This document shows, one piece after another, positions 1 to 34,587 of a DNA stretch of 34,587 nucleotides (within the stretch, counting starts at the first letter, position 1; every line of letters starts with the position of its first letter). The DNA lies in the IMG/VR virus record IMGVR_UViG_3300030328_003806, positions 1-34,587 of that record. One strand, 5' to 3'. Below the pieces are notes generated by a model. That model did no database searches. It saw only the letters and a program-made list of their open reading frames with translations, and had not been told where the DNA came from. The translations under genes and the position numbers were made by a program. Source of the stretch: a virus.

Positions 1-635
1 TAGGTGTAGGTAGTTCAGCAAACGATGGAACAGGAGATCCATTGAGAACAGCTATGCAATCAACAAACTCAAACTTTAATGAGTTATACACTCTACTTGG
101 AAATGGAAGTGCATTATCTATTAGTGGAGACGTTACAATGTCAGCAGGAGCAGTAACAATCGCAAATAGTGCTGTTGAAACTGCTATGATAAATGCTGAT
201 GCAGTAGATGGAACAAAAATAGCAGATGATAGTATTAATTCGGAACATTATGTTGATGGTTCTATTGATACTGCTCATATTGCAGATGACCAAATTACAG
301 CAGGTAAACTTGCAGATGAATTTACAGAAGCACTAGCAGTAACAAGTGCTGCATCTATTACTTTAGATGGTGGTGCTTATGATGTATTTACTTGGACTTC
401 AGGTCATTCAACAACATTAGCATTTACTAATATTACTCTTGGAATGACAAAAAGCATAATTATAACAGGAAGTGGTGGTAGTAATACTGTTGCTTTTGGT
501 AATATTAATGGTAGTAGTGGAACATTTAATCTAATATCAGGAACTTATAGTGATGCAGCAGTAAAGAATTTAATTCAACTGAAATTTATATCAACTTCTG
601 AATGTTGGTACACAATTTCACAAATATCAAGTTAA
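1..635 (+). CDS. Tail fibre protein, 5'-truncated (allele A)
   Basis: The reading frame is open from base 3 to the stop at 633-635, so the gene enters from beyond the left edge; the TTG at 42 is only an internal codon. The visible start carries the phage-fibre signature SSANDGTGDPLRTA followed by NSNFNELYTLLG. Then come short collagen-like or beta-helical repeats (DGTKIADDSI, DGSIDTAHIADDQI, AGKLADEF) typical of marine phage fibres, and a compact C-terminal domain from about base 340 ending in ECWYTISQIS. The C-terminal domain is nearly identical to that of the gene at 33744-34514, while the upstream parts differ. It probably forms part of the host-recognition fibre. The next gene starts one base after the stop. 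Confidence 0.8.
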   Translation, partial: GVGSSANDGTGDPLRTAMQSTNSNFNELYTLLGNGSALSISGDVTMSAGAVTIANSAVETAMINADAVDGTKIADDSINSEHYVDGSIDTAHIADDQITAGKLADEFTEALAVTSAASITLDGGAYDVFTWTSGHSTTLAFTNITLGMTKSIIITGSGGSNTVAFGNINGSSGTFNLISGTYSDAAVKNLIQLKFISTSECWYTISQISS

Positions 636-708
636 TATGAAAGCAGTAAATATAAATGGAATAATAACAGTTTACCAATCAGTACCGAATGTACTAAAAA
701 CTTCAACA
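312..708 (+). repeat. Left copy of 397-bp imperfect terminal repeat
   Basis: These bases match 34191-34587 at a constant offset of 33,879 without indels. By eye there are 11 substitutions (about 97% identity). In the fibre coding part only two change amino acids (Glu/Ala and Leu/Gln near LADEFTEALAV); the rest are silent, including a GGT-AGT to GGA-TCA switch. The repeat covers the fibre C-terminal domain and the first 24 codons of the next gene. Confidence 0.95.
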
Positions 709-1119
709 GGTAGTTATCTAAATGCTCCTGCTATGTCAGATGAAGCATTAAGAGATGCAGGTTGTTTTGACCTCGTTATAGATGAAAATTATGATGAGAG
801 AATACATAATTTAGGTGAGGTATATTGGGATACAGAAAACACAGTATTTAGAAAAGATGCAGAGGATAAAACTTGGTCTGAAACTGTTAGCGAATTAAAA
901 ACAAGAAGAATTAATCATTTCAAATCAATAGTTAATAGCGAATTACAGAAAACAGATTGGTATATAATCAGAAATATGGATAATGGTGATGATGTTCCAA
1001 GCATTATTACAGATGAAAGAGCTGAATTAAGAAACCAAGCTGATACAGTTGAATCAGAAATCAATGCACTTACAACTAAAAAGAAAGTAATGCAATATGA
1101 TTTCCCAAATATTGACTAA
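637..1119 (+). CDS. Fibre-associated protein, tail-fibre-assembly-chaperone-like
   Basis: A 160-aa soluble protein starting one base after the fibre stop and overlapping the next gene by one base (TAATG). The C-terminal half (about residues 88-158) contains RRINHFKSIVNSELQKTDWY, a helix with ERAELRNQA and the ending MQYDFP. This layout resembles phage tail-assembly chaperone domains of the Phage_tail_APC type (short helix, sDW motif, YR/LR helix). The N-terminus (MKAVNINGIITVYQSVP) looks like a small beta domain. A role in folding or capping the flanking fibres is inferred from position and this weak resemblance. Its first 24 codons recur at the right end of the window. Confidence 0.6.
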   Translation: MKAVNINGIITVYQSVPNVLKTSTGSYLNAPAMSDEALRDAGCFDLVIDENYDERIHNLGEVYWDTENTVFRKDAEDKTWSETVSELKTRRINHFKSIVNSELQKTDWYIIRNMDNGDDVPSIITDERAELRNQADTVESEINALTTKKKVMQYDFPNID

Positions 1120-4100
1120 TGAGTATAGGCGATAAATTATTAAAATCTGCAGCAGCAGGTGGATTAACTCCAAGTGAGAACTTTAAGACAGTTATATATA
1201 CAGGTAATGGAGGAACTCAAACTATTGAAGTAGGATTTAAACCTGACTTGTGTTGGATAAAAAATAGAGAGGGTACAACTTGGCATAATGTACAAGACAC
1301 TACAAGAGGTGCAACCCATCATGTTTACTCAAATGCAAATACTGCCCAAGAAACAACATCAGATGGGCTTACTGCTTTTACATCTACTGGATTCACATTA
1401 AGCTCAGGTAATGGGTTTAATAATGATGGTGTAGGGTTTGTCGCTTGGTGTTGGAAAGCAAAAGGAGGAACTACAAGTAGTAATGGAGTGGGAAGTATTA
1501 CAAGTACAGTACAAGCAAACACAGATACAGGATTTTCTATTGTAAAATATACAGGTACTGGTGCAGATGCTACTGTTGGACACGGTCTTGGGGCAACACT
1601 TGACTTACTTATTGTAAAAGGTTTAGAAACCACAAATGACTGGTCAGTATTACATAAAGATGGAGGTGCAGGTGATTTCTTGCAATTAAATGGTAATTCA
1701 GCAGAATCAGGTGCAGGAAGTATTTTCGGAAGTACATTTACAAGACCAACTGATACTGTATTTACTGTGGGTAATACAGGGGAAACAGGAACTAATACTA
1801 AGGATTATATTGCATATTGTTTTACCTCCATATCAGGTTTTTCAAAGTTTGGATCATACACAGGTAATGGTTCAGCAAATGGACCAATTATAGAAACAGG
1901 CTTTGAGGTTGGTTGGTTAATGGTCAAAAGAAGTGATAGTTCTGCTAATTGGCGAATAGTTGATAACGGAAGAAGTACATCAAACCCAAGACAAAAAGTT
2001 TTATTTCCAAATTTAACCAATGCTGAATTTGATGGAAGCAGCGATGCAGTTAATTTTTTATCTAATGGATTTGAAATAATAAACAATGATACATCTTGGA
2101 ATGCTTCAGGAGGTACATTTATCTATATGGCTTTTGCAACAGACCCTGACACTGAAGCACCAACACTTGCAAGTAGTTTTAATATAGAATTATATACAGG
2201 TACTAAACCTAATTCACAGAATGTAAAAGGTTTTGGATTTTCACCATCTCTTGCTTGGATAAAAATGCGAGATGGTACTGAATGGAATCAATTAATAGAT
2301 ACTGTTAGAGGTGCAACACAAACAATATATAGTAATGCTACAAATGCACAATATGCTGATACAGGTGGTTTAACATCTTTTGATTCTGATGGGTTTACAA
2401 TAGGTGGGAGCACAGGTTTTAATCAAAGTGGAAAATCGTTAGTTGCTTGGACTTGGAAAGCCAATGATGATGAGCCGACACTTTTTGGGGGGGATGCTGC
2501 AGCAGTATATAAATTTGAAGATAATTATAATGATGTAACAGGCACTTACAATGGTTCAGGAACATCAGGAACATCTTTTATTTCAGGTGGTAAGTTTAAC
2601 AAAGCAGCAGCTTTTTCAGGCACTTCATCTAATATGGACACAGGAATTACTGCAAGAAATTGGGAGTCTTGGTCTTTTTGGTTTAAACCTGGAAGTTCAA
2701 ATACAGGGTATAGAGTAATAGTTTGTACTAACAATAGTGGTGATATTGGACAAAATCTTGAATATAATGGTAGTAATAGTTTATATGTTGCAGATATATT
2801 GGGTGGTGCTACTAATACAAATGCTTCTGTAACAATAGATTTAAGGGATGGCGATTGGCATCATATTGTAATTACTAAAACAGCAACAAAAGTAAGGGTA
2901 TATGTAGATAAAGTAGAAAAATTATCAATAGCTAATGCAACTGGTAGTTCTTTACAATCAGGTAATGAATGGTCTTTTGGTAAGGGTAATTATGGTGATG
3001 CGAATAGTGATTTTAATATTGACCAAGCAAGATATTATCAGGGTGTTTTAGAACAAGAAGATATAGATAAATTATATAATGAAACTGCAGCAGACAATGA
3101 TGATTTAACTTTAGGATCACCAAAAGAAACTATAATTAGTGCAAATGCTAATGCAGGATTTAGTATTGTTAAATACACTGGTAATGCTATTTCAGGAACA
3201 AAAGTTCCTCACGGACTTTCATCAAAACCTGATATGGTAATTGCTAAAGGTTTAAGTGGTTCAGCTTCAAGTTGGTGGGTACAACACTCAAGTTTAGCAG
3301 CTGATAAAGTATTAGAACTAAATGGAACTGCTGCTGAAGCAACTTATTCATCTGTATTTAATAACACTGCAGCAACAAGTACAGTTGTTACATTAGGAAG
3401 TGGAGATACAAATAGAAGTGGCGAAACACAAATACTTTACTGTTTTCACGATGTTACAGGGTATAGTAAATTTGGAAGTTATACTGGAAGTGGAAGTGCA
3501 GGTAATGCTCAAAATGTAGGATTCCAACCTGATTTTCTTATGTTTAGAAGATATAATAATTCTGATAATTGGGTAATGGTTGACACGAGAAGAGGTGAAG
3601 ATAAATACCTATTAGCAGACACTACTGGTACAGAACAAAGTTTAGATATATTAGATTTTACTTCTACTGGTTGGACATTTAAAGGAAGTAGTATGAATAA
3701 CAGTAGTGATAATTATATATATGCAGCATTTAAGAAAAATGTAGCAAGTAATACGACATTAGCTAATAGCTTTAAAGCAGTAACATATACTGGGGATGGT
3801 GCTTCATCAAAAAGTATTACAGGAGTAGGATTTCAACCTGACTTTGTGTGGTTGAAAAATAGAGCAGGAACAACTTATCATAATTTAACTGATAGTGTTA
3901 GAGGTGTTGGGAATCAACTAAACTCAAATGATACTGCAGTACAAGAATATAATGCAACATTTTTAACATCTTTTGATACTGATGGATTCTCAATAGGAAG
4001 TGCAAATGGATATAATAATAGTGGAGTTAATTTTGTTGCTTGGTGTTGGAAAGCAGGTAATACTTGGCAATCTAATATAGATGGTACAATACCAAGTATA

Positions 4101-4751
4101 GTAAATGTTAATACTGCAAATGGATTTAGTATTGTTAAATATACAGGTAATGATGTTTCAGGTGCTACTGTTGGTCACGGATTAGGTGCTGTCCCTGATT
4201 TTATCCTTATAAAGAATTTAAGTATAACAAAATCTTGGATGGCTTGGCATAGTTCTTTAAGTGGTGAACTTGGTTATCTTGATAATAATGATGCTTTTGC
4301 ATCTTCAAGATATTCTTGGGCTTTTAATAGTACACAACCAACATCTTCTTTGGTAACATTTAATAATAATTCTAACAGTAATGATTCGCATACTAATGCA
4401 ACAAATGATTATATAATGTATTGTTGGACAGAGAAATCAGGGTTTAGCAAGTTTGGAAGTTATACTGGAAGTGGAAGTGATGGTAATGCAGTTTCGTTAG
4501 GATTCCAACCTGACTTTGTAATGATAAAAAGGACTAATAGCACTGGTGGTTGGTTAATGTTTGATAGTGCAAGAAATACATCTAATCCAAGAAATAATAG
4601 ATTAGAAGCAGATAGTAGTTCTGCTGCAACTACTGGTAGTGCAACTAAATTTTTAGATTTCAATTCAACTGATTTTGAAGCTAATGGTTCTGATACTGAA
4701 GTTAATGCAAGTGGAAGCACTTATATATATATGGCATTTAAAGCAAATTAA
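1119..4751 (+). CDS. Large modular tail fibre/adhesin with LamG-like insert
   Basis: A 1210-aa secretion-signal-free fibre built from three tandem supermodules. Each has an A unit (F-x-YTG-x-G ... PD-x-x-WIK-R-GT, near residues 22, 354 and 885), a B unit (GFSIVKYTG ... HGL, near 138, 680 and 1001) and a C unit (G[FY]SKFGSYTG ... GF-P-F-M-KR, near 240, 781 and 1108). These units resemble DUF7483-type repeats common in marine phage fibres. A LamG/concanavalin-like domain (about residues 456-661, with WSFWFKPG and DGDWHHIVITK) is inserted between A2 and B2 only. LamG folds often bind glycans, so this is a plausible polysaccharide-binding receptor module. Start is ATG overlapping the previous stop. 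Confidence 0.82.
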   Translation: MSIGDKLLKSAAAGGLTPSENFKTVIYTGNGGTQTIEVGFKPDLCWIKNREGTTWHNVQDTTRGATHHVYSNANTAQETTSDGLTAFTSTGFTLSSGNGFNNDGVGFVAWCWKAKGGTTSSNGVGSITSTVQANTDTGFSIVKYTGTGADATVGHGLGATLDLLIVKGLETTNDWSVLHKDGGAGDFLQLNGNSAESGAGSIFGSTFTRPTDTVFTVGNTGETGTNTKDYIAYCFTSISGFSKFGSYTGNGSANGPIIETGFEVGWLMVKRSDSSANWRIVDNGRSTSNPRQKVLFPNLTNAEFDGSSDAVNFLSNGFEIINNDTSWNASGGTFIYMAFATDPDTEAPTLASSFNIELYTGTKPNSQNVKGFGFSPSLAWIKMRDGTEWNQLIDTVRGATQTIYSNATNAQYADTGGLTSFDSDGFTIGGSTGFNQSGKSLVAWTWKANDDEPTLFGGDAAAVYKFEDNYNDVTGTYNGSGTSGTSFISGGKFNKAAAFSGTSSNMDTGITARNWESWSFWFKPGSSNTGYRVIVCTNNSGDIGQNLEYNGSNSLYVADILGGATNTNASVTIDLRDGDWHHIVITKTATKVRVYVDKVEKLSIANATGSSLQSGNEWSFGKGNYGDANSDFNIDQARYYQGVLEQEDIDKLYNETAADNDDLTLGSPKETIISANANAGFSIVKYTGNAISGTKVPHGLSSKPDMVIAKGLSGSASSWWVQHSSLAADKVLELNGTAAEATYSSVFNNTAATSTVVTLGSGDTNRSGETQILYCFHDVTGYSKFGSYTGSGSAGNAQNVGFQPDFLMFRRYNNSDNWVMVDTRRGEDKYLLADTTGTEQSLDILDFTSTGWTFKGSSMNNSSDNYIYAAFKKNVASNTTLANSFKAVTYTGDGASSKSITGVGFQPDFVWLKNRAGTTYHNLTDSVRGVGNQLNSNDTAVQEYNATFLTSFDTDGFSIGSANGYNNSGVNFVAWCWKAGNTWQSNIDGTIPSIVNVNTANGFSIVKYTGNDVSGATVGHGLGAVPDFILIKNLSITKSWMAWHSSLSGELGYLDNNDAFASSRYSWAFNSTQPTSSLVTFNNNSNSNDSHTNATNDYIMYCWTEKSGFSKFGSYTGSGSDGNAVSLGFQPDFVMIKRTNSTGGWLMFDSARNTSNPRNNRLEADSSSAATTGSATKFLDFNSTDFEANGSDTEVNASGSTYIYMAFKAN

Positions 4752-4766
4752 AAAAATAATTAAGAT

Positions 4767-5057
4767 ATGGCAGATTTAGATATAGATGATATTAAAAAGA
4801 AAAAGGTAAATATTTCAATAGAAAACCTAATTATGATAGGTGTTGGAATTTTTACACTTGTAGGTATGTGGTTTGCACTACAATCAGACATAGAACTTGC
4901 AAAAGAATTACCTGAACCTGAGGTTTCAAGAACCGAGTATGATTTAAAAGACCAACTTATTCGTGAGACAATTATGTCAACACAAACTAAAGTGGAGGAG
5001 AATAGCGAAAAACTTGATAAAATAGATGAAAAACTTTACGAAATAATTAAGAAATAA
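4767..5057 (+). CDS. Small protein with one TM segment and coiled coil
   Basis: A 96-aa protein with a short charged N-terminus (MADLDIDDIKKKKVNISIEN), one hydrophobic segment at about residues 21-40 (LIMIGVGIFTLVGMWFAL) and a hydrophilic, heptad-like C-terminal half with Glu/Lys pairs (KVEENSEKLDKIDEKLYEII). This is the topology of an inner-membrane spanin subunit or a membrane-anchored structural accessory protein. It starts 15 bases after the large fibre and its TAATGA junction overlaps the next gene. The neighbouring genes are all membrane-active or secreted, so a lysis role is plausible but not shown. Confidence 0.6.
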   Translation: MADLDIDDIKKKKVNISIENLIMIGVGIFTLVGMWFALQSDIELAKELPEPEVSRTEYDLKDQLIRETIMSTQTKVEENSEKLDKIDEKLYEIIKK

Positions 5058-5377
5058 TGAGACATATACTATTCATATTATTATTTATGATCCAAACAGG
5101 GCTTATACAAGCACAGGACATCACTATATTGCAAGTTAATGCAAAATGGAATCAACATAACGATTTAAATATTAGAGCCATTAGAGGTGCTAAAATTCAA
5201 TATGCAGTTTTAGGAGAACAATCGGCTAACTTTCAAAAATCAATAAAATCAGTTCCTGCACTTCTTATTTATAAAGATCAGACACTTGTTTGGAAACAAG
5301 AAGCAGGGCTTACTTTAAAGCTAACAATTAGCAGAGAAGAAATACAAAAAATAGTAGATAAGTATAAAAATGAGTAG
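5057..5377 (+). CDS. Secreted thioredoxin-fold-like protein lacking CxxC
   Basis: A 106-aa protein with a clear signal peptide (MRHILFILLFMIQTGLIQAQ, cleavage probably near residue 20). The mature part resembles thioredoxin: a first strand with QVNAKWNQHND, a central KIQYAVLGEQ, and the motif KSVPALLIYKDQ, whose VP matches the cis-proline of thioredoxins, followed by a helix to the end. The catalytic CxxC is absent, so redox catalysis is unlikely; periplasmic binding or a chaperone-like role is possible. No lipobox is seen. The next small gene starts inside its last codons. Confidence 0.55.
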   Translation: MRHILFILLFMIQTGLIQAQDITILQVNAKWNQHNDLNIRAIRGAKIQYAVLGEQSANFQKSIKSVPALLIYKDQTLVWKQEAGLTLKLTISREEIQKIVDKYKNE

Positions 5378-5543
5378 CTTTGAACCAACATTGTTAGGTG
5401 TCTTTGTTTTGCTTATATCAATGGCAGAACTTAACGATTTGGCACAATTAGTGTTGGTTTTGGTTACAATTATTTATACATTAATAAAAATTTATGAACT
5501 TATAAAAAAACAAAAAAATGAAAAAGACAATCAAAAAAATTAA
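5370..5543 (+). CDS. Holin-like small membrane protein
   Basis: A 57-aa protein (MSSFEPTLLGVFVLLISMAE...) starting with ATG that overlaps the preceding stop by 8 bases. It has a short hydrophobic stretch at residues 8-18, a small polar turn (AELNDLA) and a strong TM helix at about 26-42, then a basic/polar tail (KKQKNEKDNQKN). Size, topology and charged C-terminus fit a class II-type holin or an auxiliary membrane protein. A second holin candidate lies at 32704-33159. The stop overlaps the start of the cationic peptide gene at 5518. Confidence 0.55.
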   Translation: MSSFEPTLLGVFVLLISMAELNDLAQLVLVLVTIIYTLIKIYELIKKQKNEKDNQKN

Positions 5544-5651: not shown

Positions 5652-6083
5652 ATGGCAAGTACAGTATTCAACGGAACAAATTTATTAGTGAAAATCGCAG
5701 ATGATGGTGTTAGTCCTGCTACTATTGGTCATTCCACAAGCTGTTCAATCAGTTTTACAAACGATATGGCAGCAGCAACAACTAAAGATTCTTCAGGATT
5801 TTCAGAAGTAATACCTGCAGTTAGATCAGCAGAAATCTCTTTTGATGGTTTAGTAGATTATACAGATGGTGCAGGTGGTATGACAGGTGGAGGTGAAATT
5901 GCACACAAACTTTTAACAAGACAAAAGTGTGATTTCTCATTCGGAACTGCAGCAACAGGAGATACAGTATATACAGGAGAGGGTTACATTTCAGCAGCAG
6001 AGATTTCTGGTGCTATGGAAGAAGCAGTGACTTACTCTGGAACTATAACTGTTACAGGTGCAATTACTGAAAGTGTTAATTAA
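5652..6083 (+). CDS. Major tail tube protein
   Basis: A 143-aa beta-rich protein beginning MASTVFNGTNLLVKI, with alternating strands, a SCSISFTNDMAAATTKDS segment and an EISFDGLVDYTD segment, typical of the short siphovirus tail-tube family (TP901-1/phage major tail protein 2-like). It is immediately followed by the frameshifted chaperone and the tape measure, which is the diagnostic order for siphovirus tails. It has its own promoter with a 20-nt leader, consistent with high expression. In a circular map it follows the tail terminator gene with lysis and fibre genes in between. Confidence 0.85.
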   Translation: MASTVFNGTNLLVKIADDGVSPATIGHSTSCSISFTNDMAAATTKDSSGFSEVIPAVRSAEISFDGLVDYTDGAGGMTGGGEIAHKLLTRQKCDFSFGTAATGDTVYTGEGYISAAEISGAMEEAVTYSGTITVTGAITESVN

Positions 6084-11480: not shown

Positions 11481-12383
11481 ATGAGATATATTTCAGCTCA
11501 ACCTGCAATACTTTATTATGCTTGGCAAATAGATATAATGATTTATTCATTTATTAATAATGGGGTAAAACAAGACCAAATAGATATAATATTAGCTGAT
11601 AATAATGAAAATTGTAACTACTATAATAAGCTAAAAGATAAATATAAAGATGTTAATTTTTACTATTACCCTGACACAAGAGAAGATAAATTTTATGTTT
11701 CAAGTATAAGACCTCATATATTAAAAAAACATTTTGTAAAGTTTCCAGAACTATATAAAGGTGCTTTTCTATATCACGATTGCGATATTGCACTTACAAG
11801 ACCATTAAATATAGAACAGTATTTAGATGATGAAATTTGTTATTTAAGCGACACAAAAAGCTATATTGGATATAATTATATAGTATCAAAAGGTGAAGCT
11901 GTTTTAGATAGAATGTTACATTGTTTTGATCTTGATAAAAAAACAGTAAAAGATAATGAAGAAAATAGTGGTGGAGCTCAATATTTATTAAAAAACATAG
12001 ATTACAAATTTTGGGAAAATGTAGAAAAAGATTGTGTTCAGCTTTATAAAAATATTCATCAGATGAATAAAAAATTAAAAGTGTTAGATGAAAATTATCA
12101 CGAACTTCAAATTTGGTGTGCTGATATGTGGGCAGTCCTTTGGAATTTATGGATAGAAAAAAAACAAACAAAAATTATTAAAGAAATGGATTTTATTTGG
12201 GCGACAGATCCTAAAGAGTTTTGGACAAGAAAAGCTATTTTTCATAATGCAGGAGTTACTAATACAAAAAACAAACTTTTTTATAAAGGTAATTGGCTTT
12301 CAGAAGTGCCACCTAAAAATTTAGATATTAATATTGACAAGTCATCTTATAATTATTATCAACTACTAATTGAAGCACTTTGA
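11481..12383 (+). CDS. Putative GT-A-type glycosyltransferase
   Basis: A 300-aa soluble protein with an N-terminal alternating alpha/beta region and the motif YHDCDIALTRPL at about residues 98-109. Its D-x-D (Asp100-Cys-Asp102) after a hydrophobic strand is the usual nucleotide-sugar/metal site of GT-A enzymes. A second conserved-looking block is AIFHNAGVTN near residue 250. No signal peptide or TM segment is seen. It lies between tail genes and overlaps the next, sialyltransferase-like gene by four bases (TTGA), so the two are probably translated together. The sugar and acceptor are unknown; a virion protein is a plausible acceptor by context. The family is assigned by fold motif only. Confidence 0.6.
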   Translation: MRYISAQPAILYYAWQIDIMIYSFINNGVKQDQIDIILADNNENCNYYNKLKDKYKDVNFYYYPDTREDKFYVSSIRPHILKKHFVKFPELYKGAFLYHDCDIALTRPLNIEQYLDDEICYLSDTKSYIGYNYIVSKGEAVLDRMLHCFDLDKKTVKDNEENSGGAQYLLKNIDYKFWENVEKDCVQLYKNIHQMNKKLKVLDENYHELQIWCADMWAVLWNLWIEKKQTKIIKEMDFIWATDPKEFWTRKAIFHNAGVTNTKNKLFYKGNWLSEVPPKNLDINIDKSSYNYYQLLIEAL

Positions 12384-12877
12384 AAAATAAAATTTTGTTA
12401 GTTGGAAATGGAACGAGTTTATTAGATAAAGAATATTCAAATATAATAAACACTTATTCTATAATAGTTAGATTTAATAGTTTTAAATTAAATGGATATG
12501 AAAGATTTGTTGGCAATAGAACAAATGTTTGGTTTACTGTAAACAGGCATCATTTTGATAAAATAAACACTTTTGATAAAGTTGTAGTTCATTCTTGGGC
12601 AGACAAAGATAAATGTAAAATGTATAGAGAATTAAGAGAAAAAAGACCTGATGTTGAAAAAGTAGATAAAAATGTTTTAAAAAAAATACCACTTGGGTTT
12701 CCATCAACAGGACTTATAGCTATATATTATTTTGATTGCAATGTTGATATTATTGGTTTTGATTGGTGGGGTACAAAAAAACATCATTACGGAGATTCAG
12801 AAGTTAGGGGAAAATTGCATAATCCTCAAAAAGAATATGAAATTATCAAGTCCTTAAATGTAAATATAATTAGTTAA
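12380..12877 (+). CDS. GT29/sialyltransferase-like glycosyltransferase
   Basis: A 165-aa protein with TTG start overlapping the preceding stop. The N-terminus ILLVGNGTSLLDKEYSNII with VRFNSFKLNGYERFVGNRT (residues 5-48) closely follows the sialyl motif L pattern (GNGxSL ... VVRxN ... GxExDVGxRTT). PLGFPSTGLIAIYYFDCN (104-121) followed by IGFDWW matches motif S (PSTG ... L.C..v...GF). HHY (135-137) and H147-x4-E152 resemble motifs III and VS. It is shorter than animal GT29 enzymes and has no membrane anchor, as expected for a compact cytoplasmic form. Function as a sialyl- or other CMP-sugar transferase is inferred from these motifs. Confidence 0.65.
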   Translation: MKNKILLVGNGTSLLDKEYSNIINTYSIIVRFNSFKLNGYERFVGNRTNVWFTVNRHHFDKINTFDKVVVHSWADKDKCKMYRELREKRPDVEKVDKNVLKKIPLGFPSTGLIAIYYFDCNVDIIGFDWWGTKKHHYGDSEVRGKLHNPQKEYEIIKSLNVNIIS

Positions 12878-14477: not shown

Positions 14478-14723
14478 ATGAGTATAAATATAAGTGATTT
14501 TATTACTGAATTTGAGATAGAGTTCATTGATAATATTAGGCGATTAGGTCTAAAGAAAAAAGATGTTGCAAATAAGTTAGAAATGACTATGCCAACATTA
14601 AATTCAAAAATCAAAAATCCTCAAACTTTAAATTTAAAGGATATTGAAAATTTGAAAGAATTAAATTTTAACTTAAAAACTATTTTAAATGAGTCAAACG
14701 AAAACTCCGAAAGCAGCACCTAA
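14478..14723 (+). CDS. HTH (XRE/Cro-like) DNA-binding protein
   Basis: An 81-aa protein starting at the ATG at 14478 (MSINISDFITEFEIEF); an upstream in-frame start would run into the previous gene. FIDNIRRLGLKKKDVANKLE followed by MTMPTLNSKIKNP matches a lambda-repressor-like helix-turn-helix (helices 1-3), then a short helical tail. It is the first gene of the recombination/replication block and overlaps the ERF gene by 35 bases. It could regulate early genes. No dimerisation or repressor-cleavage domain is seen, so a CI-type lysogeny repressor is unlikely. Confidence 0.6.
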   Translation: MSINISDFITEFEIEFIDNIRRLGLKKKDVANKLEMTMPTLNSKIKNPQTLNLKDIENLKELNFNLKTILNESNENSESST

Positions 14724-15186
14724 AAAGGTGGCTAATAAAACTATAGATTATCCTAATTGGAGTATTACAATCAAAATCTATAAGATTCAAAATGAAATTG
14801 GTGCTATTAGTAAAGATGCCACCAATCCATTTTTTAAGTCAAAATATGCTGATATAAATTCAATGTTACAACAACTACAACAATTATTTTTAAAATTTGG
14901 TGTTACAATAGAACAACCTACTTCAAATGGTAGGGTATATACTATTTTAACTTGTATTGAAACAGGACAATCAAAATCAGCAGATTTAGAACTTCAAATG
15001 GTGTCTGATCCACAAAAACTTGGAAGTACGATTACCTATTTTCGTAGGTACACTTTACAAAGTTTACTTGCATTAAACACCAAAGATGATGATGCAAATA
15101 CTGCATCTGGAAAGACAGTAAGTCAAACAAAAGTGCAATCAAACAATCAACATCAACCTGATTGGATGAAAACACAAAAATTTTAA
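14689..15186 (+). CDS. erf: ERF-family single-strand annealing recombinase
   Basis: A 165-aa protein with the ERF core: KIQNEIGAISKDATNPFFKS, YADINSMLQQL, VSDPQKLGSTITYFRRYTLQ and LLALNTKDDDAN. The G-S-x-x-TY-x-RRY motif and the acidic DDDAN are family hallmarks. ERF proteins anneal homologous single strands in phage recombination and genome circularisation. The C-terminal tail is Gln-rich and disordered. It pairs functionally with the RecE-like exonuclease at 15743 and the SSB-like protein at 15219. Confidence 0.85.
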   Translation: MSQTKTPKAAPKKVANKTIDYPNWSITIKIYKIQNEIGAISKDATNPFFKSKYADINSMLQQLQQLFLKFGVTIEQPTSNGRVYTILTCIETGQSKSADLELQMVSDPQKLGSTITYFRRYTLQSLLALNTKDDDANTASGKTVSQTKVQSNNQHQPDWMKTQKF

Positions 15187-15588: not shown

Positions 15589-15786
15589 ATGGACACTTGG
15601 ATATTACAACAGTTAATTATCAATCTTGATAAAACTATAAACGAAAAAAATGAAGAAATTAAAAAATTAAAAAACGAGAAAAACGAAGAAATCAAAAAAT
15701 TAAAAAAGGAATTAAAAAAACTAAAGAATAAAGAAAAATCAAATGAAACTAAAACCACAAATTCAGAACTTACAAACCAAGACTGA
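15589..15786 (+). CDS. Small Lys/Glu coiled-coil protein
   Basis: A 65-aa protein, MDTWILQQLIINLDKTINEK followed by tandem units NEEIKKLKNEK and NEEIKKLKKE, forming a heptad-like coiled coil, with a Thr/Asn tail. It lies after a terminator and overlaps the start of the exonuclease gene by 44 bases. The DNA is repetitive and A-rich, so by itself coding status is uncertain, but the start, the spacing and the heptads support a small helical accessory protein, possibly a partner of the exonuclease. Confidence 0.45.
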   Translation: MDTWILQQLIINLDKTINEKNEEIKKLKNEKNEEIKKLKKELKKLKNKEKSNETKTTNSELTNQD

Positions 15787-16531
15787 TTCAATACAAGATT
15801 ATCATTCTAAAGAATGTATATCTGCATCAGGACTAAAATTGATTTCTAAAAAATCAGTTTATCACTACTTAAATAAAAAACCTATACAATCCAAAAGTTT
15901 AGATTTAGGAATCGCAACTCATATAATGGTATATGATGGTTATGAAGAATTTTTAAAGCAATACTTTATAATGCCAAAACTTGATCTTCGTAGAAAAGAA
16001 GATAAAGATATAAAAGAAAAACTTTTAAAAAAGGCAGATGGTAAAATTTTATTATCGCAAGATGATGATACTATTATAAGAGGTATTTATGAAAATCATA
16101 TTAGGTCAGAAATAGCACAAAAATATTCTAATGGCGATATAGAAATATCTCATTATGGTCAGTATGAGGGTATTGATGTTCGTGTTAGACCTGATTGTAT
16201 AGCAAGAGATAGAAGTTGGATAAGTGATGTTAAAACTTGTCAAGATTCTTCACCAAGAGCTTTTAGAATGGATTTATATAAATGGTCTTATCATCTACAA
16301 GCAGTTTTTTATTGCGATATGATAGGTGTTGATCCTTTAAATTTTAGATTTATTGCTTGTGAAACTAACTACCCATATCAAGTGCAAGTGTACTCATTAT
16401 CGGAAGATTTAGTAGAAAAAGGTAGGGATGGATATAGGTCAGCTTTTAAGTATTGGAAAATGTATTTAAATGATGGTATAGTGCCAGGTTTTATTGGCGA
16501 GTATAATAAAGATGGTAGTATAATTATTTAA
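15743..16531 (+). CDS. RecE-like PD-(D/E)XK exonuclease
   Basis: A 262-aa protein with the RecE/Exo VIII C-terminal nuclease layout: ISASGLKLI (residues 26-34), GIATHIMVY with His60, RVRPDCIARD (Asp151), WISDVKTCQD (Asp162-x-Lys164) and YKWSYHLQAVFYCD (Gln186/Tyr190). These make the H ... D ... DxK ... QxxxY active site of 5'-3' dsDNA exonucleases used with annealing proteins. With ERF upstream it forms a two-component recombination system. The N-terminal 20 residues are Lys/Gln-rich. Start is ATG at 15743, inside the preceding small gene. Confidence 0.82.
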   Translation: MKLKPQIQNLQTKTDSIQDYHSKECISASGLKLISKKSVYHYLNKKPIQSKSLDLGIATHIMVYDGYEEFLKQYFIMPKLDLRRKEDKDIKEKLLKKADGKILLSQDDDTIIRGIYENHIRSEIAQKYSNGDIEISHYGQYEGIDVRVRPDCIARDRSWISDVKTCQDSSPRAFRMDLYKWSYHLQAVFYCDMIGVDPLNFRFIACETNYPYQVQVYSLSEDLVEKGRDGYRSAFKYWKMYLNDGIVPGFIGEYNKDGSIII

Positions 16532-16542
16532 AAATCTCTTAA

Positions 16543-17217
16543 ATGAAAGATTTAGCACTAATACGAGGATATGTAAATAAATATTTTGAGTTAGATATTA
16601 GAGATAAAAATAGGAAAAGAGAATATGTTGATGCACGATTTATTTATTTTACATTAAGCAGACAATTAATATCAGGAATTACTTGTGATAGAATCGGCAG
16701 ATCTGTCGGATTAAACCACGCTTCAGTTGTTCACGGTATAAAAACTTTGGAGTTGTTATTAACTTATGACAAAACCATACAAAATAATTATTTAACTTTA
16801 AAGAATATTTGTTTAAGTAATATTGAGAATTTGGCAAACCCTTTTGAAAAATATTTAGGAAAAGAGGATAAACTTCAACATAGTGTAATGGAATATATGA
16901 AATTCCAATACCCAAATGTTTATGCAATTCATATACCGAATGAGGGTAAGCGAAGTCCATTCGAAAGATTTAAGTTTAAATATTTAGGTGGTAGAGCAGG
17001 AGTTCCAGATATTATGATATTTAGATCAAACGGTGAAAAGAATGGTCTTGCTATTGAATTAAAAGTTGGTTATAATAAGCCAACAGAAAATCAATTAGAA
17101 TCTATTGAAAAATTAAAGAAAGAGAATTGGGAGTGTCATTGGCTAAATGATTATGATAAAGTCATACAGGTCATTGAAGATTACTTCAGTAAAAATTCTC
17201 ACAATGCAGACATATAA
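16543..17217 (+). CDS. DnaA domain IV-like / VRR-NUC nuclease fusion
   Basis: A 224-aa two-domain protein. Residues 1-90 resemble DnaA domain IV: RKREYVDARFIYFTLSRQL, CDRIGRSVGLNHASVVHGI, where HASVVHG matches the DnaA D-H-[AT]-[ST]-V signature used for DnaA-box recognition. Residues 105-215 form a VRR-NUC domain: IPNEGKRSPF (132-141), GGRAGVPDIMIF with PD (155-156), IELKVG (ELK 172-174) and TENQ (181-184), the PD-(D/E)XK-type catalytic set. No AAA+ domain is present. A site-directed nuclease at the origin or at recombination intermediates is a reasonable inference. It lies between the exonuclease and the replication genes. Confidence 0.75.
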   Translation: MKDLALIRGYVNKYFELDIRDKNRKREYVDARFIYFTLSRQLISGITCDRIGRSVGLNHASVVHGIKTLELLLTYDKTIQNNYLTLKNICLSNIENLANPFEKYLGKEDKLQHSVMEYMKFQYPNVYAIHIPNEGKRSPFERFKFKYLGGRAGVPDIMIFRSNGEKNGLAIELKVGYNKPTENQLESIEKLKKENWECHWLNDYDKVIQVIEDYFSKNSHNADI

Positions 17218-18163: not shown

Positions 18164-18480
18164 ATAAAACACTTGTAAAAGAACTAAAAGCAAAAGCAGA
18201 AGATGTAGCTGATAAATTTTCTATAAAAAATAGAGAGGGAAATTATAACAATGAAATATTTAAAGTAGTTGAGGTAATTCCAATGTCAGATCATACAGCT
18301 TCGGTAATATTTAAAAAGAATACTGGTAAAAAAGCAGTTTTCTTTTTTTATTATATAAATAGGGGAATTGCTAAAGGTTGGAAATATTTTGTACCAACAG
18401 ATTCTCATATTATAGGTATGCAATCATTTAATTTTTATAAATTAGAAGTTGAAAGGAATAATTATAAAGAAAACTTTTAA
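18160..18480 (+). CDS. Hypothetical protein, 106 aa
   Basis: A Lys-rich alpha/beta protein (MNKTLVKELKAKAEDVADKF ... KKAVFFFYYINRGIAKGWKY). It has no signal peptide; the aromatic stretch VFFFYYI is too short for a TM helix and looks like a core strand. It overlaps its neighbours by four bases upstream and one base downstream, so it is translationally coupled within the replication operon. No function recognised. Confidence 0.6.
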   Translation: MNKTLVKELKAKAEDVADKFSIKNREGNYNNEIFKVVEVIPMSDHTASVIFKKNTGKKAVFFFYYINRGIAKGWKYFVPTDSHIIGMQSFNFYKLEVERNNYKENF

Positions 18481-19106
18481 TGAATGTATTAGAATTATTT
18501 GCAGGTTCTTGTACTTTTAGCAATGAAGCTAAAAAGTTAGGTTATAATACATTCACTTCTGATTATAAGCAATTCAATAATATAGATTATGTTGTTGATA
18601 TACTTGAATTTGATGTTTTAAAAGTTCCATTTAAACCTGATTTAATATGGGCAAGTCCACCTTGTACTTATTTTAGTGTAGCATCTATTGGTAAACATTG
18701 GAACAAAGACCATACACCAAAATCTAATAATGCTTTAATTGGTGTTAAGTATGTTCAAAAAACAATAGATATTATAAATTATTTTAAACCTAAATATTGG
18801 TATATAGAAAATCCAAGAGGTAAATTAAGAAAATTAGAAGTTGTAAAAGGTCTTGAAAAAGCAACTGTTTGGTATTGTCAATATGGTGATGATAGAGCAA
18901 AACCTACAGATATTTGGTCAAACAATATTTCATCATTGTTAAATCCAAATGGTTGGAATCCAAGAAAACAATGTTTTAATGGTAATAAAAATTGTCATCA
19001 TCAACCTGCACCAAGAGGTAGTCGAACTGGTACACAAGGATTAAAAAATAATTATGAAAGAAGTAAATTGCCAATAGAATTATGTAAAGAAATATTAGGA
19101 AAATGA
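18480..19106 (+). CDS. Compact C5-cytosine DNA methyltransferase
   Basis: A 208-aa protein with motif I LELFAGS (residues 4-10), motif IV SPPCTYFS with the catalytic Cys near residue 62, motif VI IENP near 110, a motif VIII-like VWYCQYGDDRAKPTDIWSN and a C-terminal GTQGLKNNYERSKLP region. It is much shorter than typical bacterial Dcm enzymes (300-400 aa), with a minimal target-recognition region, as in many phage versions. It would methylate phage DNA, probably to avoid host restriction. It overlaps both neighbours in the operon. Confidence 0.8.
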   Translation: MNVLELFAGSCTFSNEAKKLGYNTFTSDYKQFNNIDYVVDILEFDVLKVPFKPDLIWASPPCTYFSVASIGKHWNKDHTPKSNNALIGVKYVQKTIDIINYFKPKYWYIENPRGKLRKLEVVKGLEKATVWYCQYGDDRAKPTDIWSNNISSLLNPNGWNPRKQCFNGNKNCHHQPAPRGSRTGTQGLKNNYERSKLPIELCKEILGK

Positions 19107-20786: not shown

Positions 20787-21968
20787 ATGAAACAAAAAAT
20801 AAGTATAAAAAAAATAAAACCAAATAAAAATAATCCAAGATTTATAAACAACTCTAAATTTAAAAGATTAGTAAAATCTATTGAGGAGTTTCCTCAAATG
20901 TTAGAAAAACGACCAATTATTGTTGATGAAAATTTTATTGTTCTTGGTGGTAATATGCGATTAAAGGCTTGTAAAAAAGCAGGACTTAAAGAAATTTGGA
21001 TTGAACAAGTTATTGGTTGGTCAGAAAATCAGAAAAAAGAATTTATCATAAAAGATAATTCAAGTTTTGGTGAGTGGGATTGGGATATATTAGCAAATCA
21101 ATGGGATATAGAACAGTTAGAAGATTGGGGGTTAGATATTCCTGAAATACCAATTGTTGATGTAGAAGCAGAAGAAGATGATTACCAAATACCTGATGAA
21201 ATAAAAACAGATATTGTATTAGGGGACTTAATAGAAATAGGCGAACATAGATTGTTGTGTGGCGATAGTACAGACAGCGAACAAGTGGCTAAGCTAATGA
21301 ATGGAGAGAAAGCAGATATGGTTTTTACTGATCCACCATATAATGCCTTAAAGAGTTGGAAAAAAAATGAAACTAAAAGCGAAACAAGATTAAATCCTAA
21401 CGAATGGTTTGCAAATGATAATATGAATTGGAATGATTTTGAACAATTTTTATTAGATAGTTTTAAAAATTTTAATAGCGAAAGTGTTTATATATGTTGT
21501 GACTATAGAATATATCATATAGTTAAAAAACAAATAGAATTATGTAATTATAAATTAAAACACTTAATCGTATGGAAAAAAAATATATGGGGATTAGGTA
21601 AAAGATATAGATTTCAGCACGAATTAATTATATATGTAACAAAAGAAAATAATTCACCGTTTTATGGTGACAACTCTCAAAGTGATGTGTGGGAGGTTGA
21701 TGTAGATAGGCAAACTAAACATAAAACACCAAAACCAATAGAATTGTCGTCTATTGCTATAAAAAACAGTAGTAAAATAAAGATGTTAGTTCTTGACCTA
21801 TTTCTTGGTAGTGGTTCAACAATGGTAGCAGCTCACCAATTAAAAAGAAAATGCTATGGAATGGAACTTGATCCAAAATATTGTCAAGTTATAATAGACA
21901 GGATGCAAAAACTTGACACTAATATTGAAATAAAAATTAATGGTAAAAAATATAAATCAAAAAACTAA
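20787..21968 (+). CDS. ParB-like/DNA adenine-type methyltransferase fusion
   Basis: A 393-aa protein. Residues 1-120 are a ParB/Srx-like N-domain (IKKIKPNKNNPRFINN, RPIIVDENFIVLGGNMRLKA). A linker holds the segment DIVLGDLIEIGEHRLLCGDS, then the methyltransferase motif IV DPPYN near residue 182 and a C-terminal AdoMet site (LVLDLFLGSGSTMVAAHQLK near 333; YGMELDPKYC). The order (IV before I) indicates a beta-class N6-adenine or N4-cytosine methyltransferase. ParB-methyltransferase fusions are common in phages and protect genomes from restriction. It ends the replication operon, followed by terminator hairpins. Confidence 0.85.
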   Translation: MKQKISIKKIKPNKNNPRFINNSKFKRLVKSIEEFPQMLEKRPIIVDENFIVLGGNMRLKACKKAGLKEIWIEQVIGWSENQKKEFIIKDNSSFGEWDWDILANQWDIEQLEDWGLDIPEIPIVDVEAEEDDYQIPDEIKTDIVLGDLIEIGEHRLLCGDSTDSEQVAKLMNGEKADMVFTDPPYNALKSWKKNETKSETRLNPNEWFANDNMNWNDFEQFLLDSFKNFNSESVYICCDYRIYHIVKKQIELCNYKLKHLIVWKKNIWGLGKRYRFQHELIIYVTKENNSPFYGDNSQSDVWEVDVDRQTKHKTPKPIELSSIAIKNSSKIKMLVLDLFLGSGSTMVAAHQLKRKCYGMELDPKYCQVIIDRMQKLDTNIEIKINGKKYKSKN

Positions 21969-29923: not shown

Positions 29924-30283
29924 GTGGATGTAAATACACGAGGTTGTGTTGCTGAATATTCATTCGGTGTTGAGTGCTTAAAAAGAGGCATTATAGTTTC
30001 CTTTCCCATACTTGATTCTTGTGTTTATGATTGTATTGCAGATACAGGGAAAAACATTTATCGCATACAAATAAAATCAACAGGAAAAAAAAAGGAAAAA
30101 AACAGATCAACAGTTCAAGCAAATTGGCATACTATCTATACAGAACAAGATGTTGATTATTTTGCCGTATGGGTGGATCTATATAAAGGATTCTTTATTT
30201 TTAAAAATATAGGACAACAAAGTATAAGATTAAGTATGGATAATACAAATTCAAAATTTTTTAATAACTTTGACTTCAAATAG
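29924..30283 (+). CDS. PD-(D/E)XK nuclease-like protein (PDDEXK_5-like)
   Basis: A 119-aa protein with GTG start. RGCVAEYSFGVECLKRGIIV carries Glu11 in the first helix, FPILDSCVYDCIAD the acidic Asp36 and IYRIQIKSTG the Q49-x-K51 strand, a pattern of PD-(D/E)XK proteins of the group I intron endonuclease/PDDEXK_5 kind. Residues 78-106 (DVDYFAVWVDLYKGFFIF) complete the fold. It has its own terminator upstream and another downstream, so it is an autonomous transcription unit inserted between capsid and connectors. Whether it acts in homing, host DNA degradation or resolution is unknown. Confidence 0.62.
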   Translation: MDVNTRGCVAEYSFGVECLKRGIIVSFPILDSCVYDCIADTGKNIYRIQIKSTGKKKEKNRSTVQANWHTIYTEQDVDYFAVWVDLYKGFFIFKNIGQQSIRLSMDNTNSKFFNNFDFK

Positions 30284-33743: not shown

Positions 33744-34514
33744 ATGGCAAGTTTAACAGGTAATAAAATAAAAGATACATATTCATCACTACTAAAAGTT
33801 GGTGATAATGGTGCAATAGATAGTTCAGCACAAGCACTTACAGATGGTGCAGGAAATGCACTTGGACTTACACTTACAAATGCAGGTGTAATTGTTTCAA
33901 CTACAAATGGAACATTAATAGGAACATCTGATACTAATGTTGTAACTGCAGCATTACTTAATGTTTCAGGTAATGGATCAGCAGGTGAAATATTAACTTC
34001 AGATGGTGATGGTTCATTTTCTTGGGGTGCAGCAGCTACAGGTGATATTACAGGTGTAACTGCAGGAACAGGTCTATCAGGTGGAGGAACAAGTGGTGCA
34101 GTAACAATTAATCTTGATACTCACACAGGAGATGTAACAGGTACAACTGCTTTAACGATTGCAAATGATGTAGTAACTGCAGATAAATTAGCAGATGAAT
34201 TTACAGCAGCACAAGCAGTAACAAGTGCTGCATCTATTACTTTAGATGGTGGTGCTTATGATGTGTTTACTTGGACTTCAGGTCATTCAACAACATTAGC
34301 ATTTACTAATATTACTCTTGGAATGACAAAAAGCATAATTATAACAGGAAGTGGTGGTAGTAATACTGTTGCTTTTGGTAATATTAATGGATCAAGTGGA
34401 ACATTTAATCTAATATCAGGAACTTATAGTGATGCAGCAGTAAAGAATTTAATCCAATTGAAATTTATATCAACTTCTGAATGTTGGTACACAATTTCTC
34501 AAATATCAAGTTAA
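33744..34514 (+). CDS. Tail fibre protein (allele B)
   Basis: A complete 256-aa fibre. The N-terminus MASLTGNKIKDTYSSLLKVG is a standard virion-attachment segment of phage fibres (GNKIxxTYxxLLK), followed by Gly/Thr-rich repeats (GNGSAGEILTSDGDGSFSWG, GVTAGTGLSGGGTSGAVTI). The C-terminal domain from LADEF on is nearly identical to that of the truncated fibre at the left edge; the middle is unrelated and lacks the SSANDGTGDPLR and DGSIDTAHIADD elements. This gene shows what a complete copy looks like, including the attachment segment. The next gene starts one base after the stop. Confidence 0.82.
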   Translation: MASLTGNKIKDTYSSLLKVGDNGAIDSSAQALTDGAGNALGLTLTNAGVIVSTTNGTLIGTSDTNVVTAALLNVSGNGSAGEILTSDGDGSFSWGAAATGDITGVTAGTGLSGGGTSGAVTINLDTHTGDVTGTTALTIANDVVTADKLADEFTAAQAVTSAASITLDGGAYDVFTWTSGHSTTLAFTNITLGMTKSIIITGSGGSNTVAFGNINGSSGTFNLISGTYSDAAVKNLIQLKFISTSECWYTISQISS

Positions 34515-34587
34515 TATGAAAGCAGTAAATATAAATGGAATAATAACAGTTTACCAATCAGTGCCGAATGTACTAAAAACTTCAACA
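34191..34587 (+). repeat. Right copy of 397-bp imperfect terminal repeat
   Basis: Matches 312-708 base for base at a constant offset with 11 substitutions and no indels, and runs exactly to the end of the window. Upstream similarity falls away quickly, apart from the shared KLADEF codons. Confidence 0.95.
34516..34587 (+). CDS. Fibre-associated protein, 3'-truncated copy
   Basis: The first 24 codons (MKAVNINGIITVYQSVPNVL ...) are identical in protein to the gene at 637-1119 and differ at one silent base. The window ends inside it. It is either the same gene seen again on a circular map or a real second copy. Confidence 0.85.
   Translation, partial: MKAVNINGIITVYQSVPNVLKTST

Follow-up and report, generated by a model that had tools for sequence, protein, structure and literature searches.

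Probable exchange of a fibre tip-chaperone cassette between two unrelated marine phage lineages, and a likely assembly switch at the ends of one phage contig

It is likely that the DNA analyzed here as the window, that is, all 34,587 nucleotides of IMG/VR record IMGVR_UViG_3300030328_003806, holds the circular genome of one phage (lineage 1), that the fibre stem of a second phage (lineage 2) was joined to it by the assembly, and that a real exchange of a fibre cassette between the two lineages lies beneath this join. The first 311 bases would be the stem of a co-occurring phage of the other lineage, joined at an identical stretch of 125 bp, and this stretch would be identical in both phages because the lineages truly exchange their host-recognition cassette. 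The features concerned are listed in Table 1.

Table 1. Positions in the window of the fibre cassette, its junctions and the recombination genes.
Feature	Position	Strand	Identity or basis
Stem of fibre A, first 16 nt lacking	1..278	+	278/278 identical to L005
Tip domain of fibre A, left copy	279..635	+	lineage-2 haplotype to 511, then other haplotype
125-bp stretch, site of the haplotype switch	387..511	+	125/125 in both ends and L005
Putative tail-fibre assembly chaperone	637..1119	+	phrog_4912 tail fiber assembly, E 6e-5
Large fibre	1119..4751	+	four DUF7483 repeats and Laminin_G_3 lectin-like domain (Pfam); phrog_24898 tail fiber
Two small cassette genes of lineage-2 type	4767..5377	+	g4767 94% and g5057 77% aa to G002
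Interior recombination breakpoint, near 5370	5365..5380	+	left side nearer G002; right side 91-100% to G001, unlike G002
ERF	14689-15186		PF04404, E 7.5e-23
Exonuclease VIII-like gene	15743-16531		phrog_412, E 5e-52
Stem of fibre B, native lineage-1 stem	33744..34157	+	95% aa to G001, 82% to G005
Tip domain of fibre B, lineage-2-like	34158..34514	+	95-97% aa to G002/G003/G010, 77% to G001
Stem-tip junction, about 22 bp common to both lineages	34190..34212	+	G001-like before, lineage-2-like after
Chaperone gene, first 72 nt, right-end copy	34516..34587	+	71/72 vs 637-708

The two ends of the window carry a near-identical repeat of 397 bp, which exceeds chance by far. Alignment of positions 312-708 with 34191-34587 gave 11 mismatches and no indels (97.2% identity). 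Nine of the 11 differences were silent, the two others being E/A at 328 and L/Q at 334. Since four of the silent sites are accounted for by one single change, GGT-AGT to GGA-TCA, sequencing error can be excluded, and the original prediction of an indel-free, mostly silent and biological divergence between the two copies is borne out. The repeat finder extended the similarity to the left as far as 279 and 34158. Upstream of the repeat, the proteins of the two stems were unrelated (best blastp E 0.17), also as predicted. The left fibre ORF is truncated and lacks its first 16 nt, base 1 of the window being gene nucleotide 17 as in L005. The distance between the two copies, 33879, fits a circle with an overlap of 708 bases; the record is filed as 'linear' in IMG/VR.

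Gene order, size and single copy in relatives indicate that the window represents a single circular genome of about 33.88 kb, siphovirus-like and with one fibre gene, plus the 708 overlapping bases. The siphovirus-like plan is deduced from PHROG matches to terminase, portal, major head protein, neck, tail terminator and tape measure, found along with endolysin, holin, primase/helicase and exonuclease VIII. The nearest contig is G001 (28,105 bp), with a DNA identity of 96-98% over most of its length and of 89-93% near its ends; its TerL, portal and major head protein are 98-100% identical in amino acids to those of the window. This contig spans the window from 4909 to the right end and continues into sequence matching 709-854; as it crosses the join in this way, fibre B precedes the chaperone of the window. 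Another relative, G005 (33,971 bp), has this gene circle at about the same length, opened elsewhere, between window positions 5668 and 5685, and it carries the fibre, the chaperone and the big fibre once each. The chaperone was single-copy in all 14 records searched, and also in each of 31 distinct contigs, which are those where the g33338 gene is followed by the chaperone as well as by the big fibre. From G001, G005 and these 31 contigs, one circle and its overlap therefore follow. Thus, the prediction of a single-fibre circular genome measuring about 33.9 kb is supported, while its other branch, tandem cassettes, is not.

Stem A, at the left end, is native to lineage 2 and appears on sequence grounds to be foreign to the phage of the window. 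In lineage 2 (G002, G003 and G010/L005), it comes after the portal of that lineage and a gene of 165 aa, and the gene order at L005 is lineage-2 portal, 165-aa gene, fibre and chaperone. G002 measures 37,578 bp and has an exact end repeat of 119 bp, as expected for a complete circle. Its portal belongs to another PHROG family than that of the window, the TerL proteins of the two lineages share 27% amino acid identity, and at the DNA level G002 resembles the window nowhere but in the fibre cassette, in the gene of a small nuclease and in a short piece near 33.2 kb. Lineage 2 gave no megablast match to isolate phages. No tape measure was recognized in the ten lineage-2 proteins scanned, and a podovirus-like virion is thus possible. 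At its N-terminus, stem A weakly resembles T4 gp9/10.

The comparison of both ends with L005 located the join. Over 1-511, the left end shows no difference from L005 (511/511), and over 512-636 it matches this contig at 118 of 125 positions. The right end, aligned to the same positions, departs from L005 ahead of 387 and agrees with it fully over 387-636. A composite of the left end over 1-386 and the right end over 387-636 reproduces L005 at 636/636, vs 629/636 for the left end and 322/325 for the right end without compositing. In IMG/VR, the 125-bp stretch itself matches solely the contig of L005. Read from these alignments, the window ends appear as reciprocal crossovers within one identical stretch and, because the haplotypes at the two ends are reciprocal, this end crossover is most likely an artificial switch made by the assembly between co-occurring phages. 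A length of 125 bp is close to or above the usual word length of short-read assembly, and such a pattern is what a de Bruijn assembly yields when it takes a wrong way out of a segment common to two genomes. On the other side of the balance, the chaperone starts with TACCAATC in both ends; this sequence is common to them and absent from the other contigs compared, so that the lineage-2 phage of the sample is not identical to L005 at this place. Exact searches gave no match in IMG/VR for this private chaperone allele and, over 150 bp, none outside the window for the combination found at the left end. Also against the switch, L007 naturally has this combination at sites 386 and 512-515.

Beneath this switch, the cassette from the tip to g5057 appears to have moved between the lineages, because tip, chaperone and g5057 are lineage-2-like and are followed by a sharp swap near 5370. 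Whichever pairing of the two ends is taken, each tip has an amino acid identity of 95% or more to lineage 2, vs 77% to G001, a contig that is nearly identical elsewhere. The chaperone of the window is 94-95% identical to lineage 2, and g5057 is just 45% identical to its counterpart in G001, which is of the same species. The big fibre is about equally distant from both lineages. Across lineages, tip and chaperone reach 93-97% amino acid identity while the head and tail genes lie outside every DNA match; the same cassette is thus found in phages with unrelated structural genes, as the TerL comparison also indicates. The stem-tip junction at the right end would be a second breakpoint made in vivo. 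The original prediction had placed swapping at the shared tip, which is seen in the sequence; the particular crossover at the contig ends is best read as the assembly switch. The prediction had also taken the stems as the moving part. The direction is the reverse: the stem stays with its virion type, and the tip, the chaperone and the genes after them move.

Our proposed mechanism is as follows. The exchanged cassette would consist of the tip, the chaperone, g4767, g5057 and probably the big fibre, and would recombine at short conserved patches, possibly with the ERF and exonuclease VIII of the phage; recombination genes of ERF and RecE type had been predicted, and both are present in the window. 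The N-terminal stem would dock on each virion type and remain in place. The C-terminal domain, the chaperone and the distal lectin-like fibre would travel as a matched set, and moving this set would alter receptor specificity. The gene at 16543-17217 was also considered as ERF and was rejected, its protein being made of the DNA-binding C-terminal domain of DnaA joined to a VRR-NUC nuclease domain.

Other readings of the contig ends have to be weighed against the assembly switch. A real reciprocal recombinant would give the same pattern at 387-511, the cassette does move between lineages, and all four combinations of sites 386 and 512-515 were seen across contigs. Part of the phage population might thus have the lineage-2 stem in its sole fibre gene, the ends being two true alleles. 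We nevertheless consider this unlikely, as stem A was found in none of the 31 cassette-bearing contigs, as the window ends are exact reciprocal halves around L005, and as a stem made for another virion would probably not attach. The original prediction of two alleles of one phage with exchangeable stems is thus not supported, given the perfect match of the left end over 1-511 to a lineage-2 contig and the absence of stem A from the lineage-1 relatives compared. A broader version, which we find quite unlikely, is that of a live exchange among ocean phages, in which stems are fixed, the set of tip, chaperone and distal fibre moves between siphovirus-like and unrelated phages often enough to leave 250-bp identity today, and some genomes of the window's phage carry the stem of the other lineage.

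A tandem arrangement, with stem B, tip and chaperone beside stem A, tip, chaperone and big fibre and with an assembly broken inside the repeat, would agree with the fact that 1-5377 is one continuous block of which each tested part but the big fibre is lineage-2-like. Also, the more distant L127, L086 and L027 have two tip-bearing fibre genes per contig (812-3601 and 5821-6360 in L127; 7177-7830 and 15342-15848 in L086). However, the cassette is single-copy in G005 and in every other relative compared, and the reciprocal haplotype switch would be left unexplained, which makes this arrangement very improbable. A direct repeat at both contig ends could also be the physical terminal repeat of packaged DNA, but the copies differ by 3%, lie inside a gene and resemble one phage ahead of 387-511 and another beyond it. 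We rejected this last reading on account of the differing copies and of the different phages matched on each side, and leave it next to no probability.

The role of the chaperone is putative and was assigned from its weak PHROG match and its position. Its AlphaFold model was confident, with strands in the N-terminal part and helices in the C-terminal part; fold searches returned helical-bundle look-alikes only, without a confident match. This protein had no match in Pfam and none among isolate phages in a protein search, and 52 pattern matches in bacterial and archaeal genomes included no relatives. The big fibre, whose lectin domain is laminin-G/concanavalin-like, is probably the distal receptor-binding fibre. 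The tip of fibre B was modelled as an all-beta domain (AlphaFold pLDDT 91.5). Its best structural neighbours included TSP4 residues 53-182 (Z 8.1) and T4 gp9 residues 66-168 (Z 7.2), with VIA Z of 7.2-8.8 to several phage spike/baseplate proteins and 3.5 for the next unrelated rows. The best Foldseek E was 0.006, with no match at 0.001 or better. As the XD1 modules corresponding to these two are described as spacers between modules binding other proteins (PMC8825819), the tip may be a platform bearing the distal fibre rather than the receptor-binding end. A stand-alone tip-domain gene of about 119-127 residues was observed in L083 (9986-10345), L084 (2624-3007) and L122 (5986-6345), directly upstream of the chaperone gene in L083 and L084.

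Among the matches listed, isolate phages matched the big fibre region weakly, at about 65-71% identity, and were mostly Pelagibacter phages; a SAR11 host is plausible. Several other genes of the window were observed. Two genes of DNA methyltransferase type (18480-19106 and 20787-21968) are absent from G001, whose flanks are continuous across both. Among the tail-side genes, a small protein (12380-12877) matches glycosyltransferase family 29 (sialyltransferase) in part but above the cutoff, at E 3.8e-11. A PDDEXK_5 nuclease gene (29924-30283) is flanked by the genes of the major head protein and of the head-tail connector; lineage 2 has a homologue of about 62% identity, located downstream of the cassette.

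Exchange of fibre and fibre assembly genes is classical in P2, Mu and T4-like phages. Two unrelated marine phages with near-identical host-recognition DNA are probably competitors for the same hosts and swap specificity with each other. Also, cassettes shared in this way can lead to a contig spliced from two viruses, which would mislead analyses of host range and alleles. In this regard, fibre-bounded islands and microdiversity are known to fragment short-read assemblies (PMC6487183), and here likewise the cassette or its immediate flank is where two contigs of one species stop; unlike those breaks, the present one would also join two different phages. In work on the metaviromic islands of marine phages, tail fibres, lectin-like proteins and tail fibre assembly proteins rank with the most variable genome parts (PMC3909814), and our data similarly show host-recognition genes that vary between otherwise closely related marine phages; such islands are defined by under-recruitment of reads, whereas the cassette described here is known from contigs alone. 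At the structural level, the weak match of stem A and the overlap of the tip model may point to a likeness to the XD1 domains of T4 gp9/gp10 and CBA120 TSP4 (PMC8825819). Finally, cross-morphotype exchange of fibre and chaperone is already known, and the window is a recent, well-delimited case of it. Alteromonas phages A5, V22 and P24 share a tail fibre-chaperone host-recognition module (PMC10579305) and, compared by description, the fibre C-terminus, chaperone and central fibre are there too common to different morphotypes with otherwise unrelated genomes. In contrast to that module, which reflects an old exchange with fibres 35-60% similar, the tip DNA of the window is 97-100% identical to the closest lineage-2 contig.
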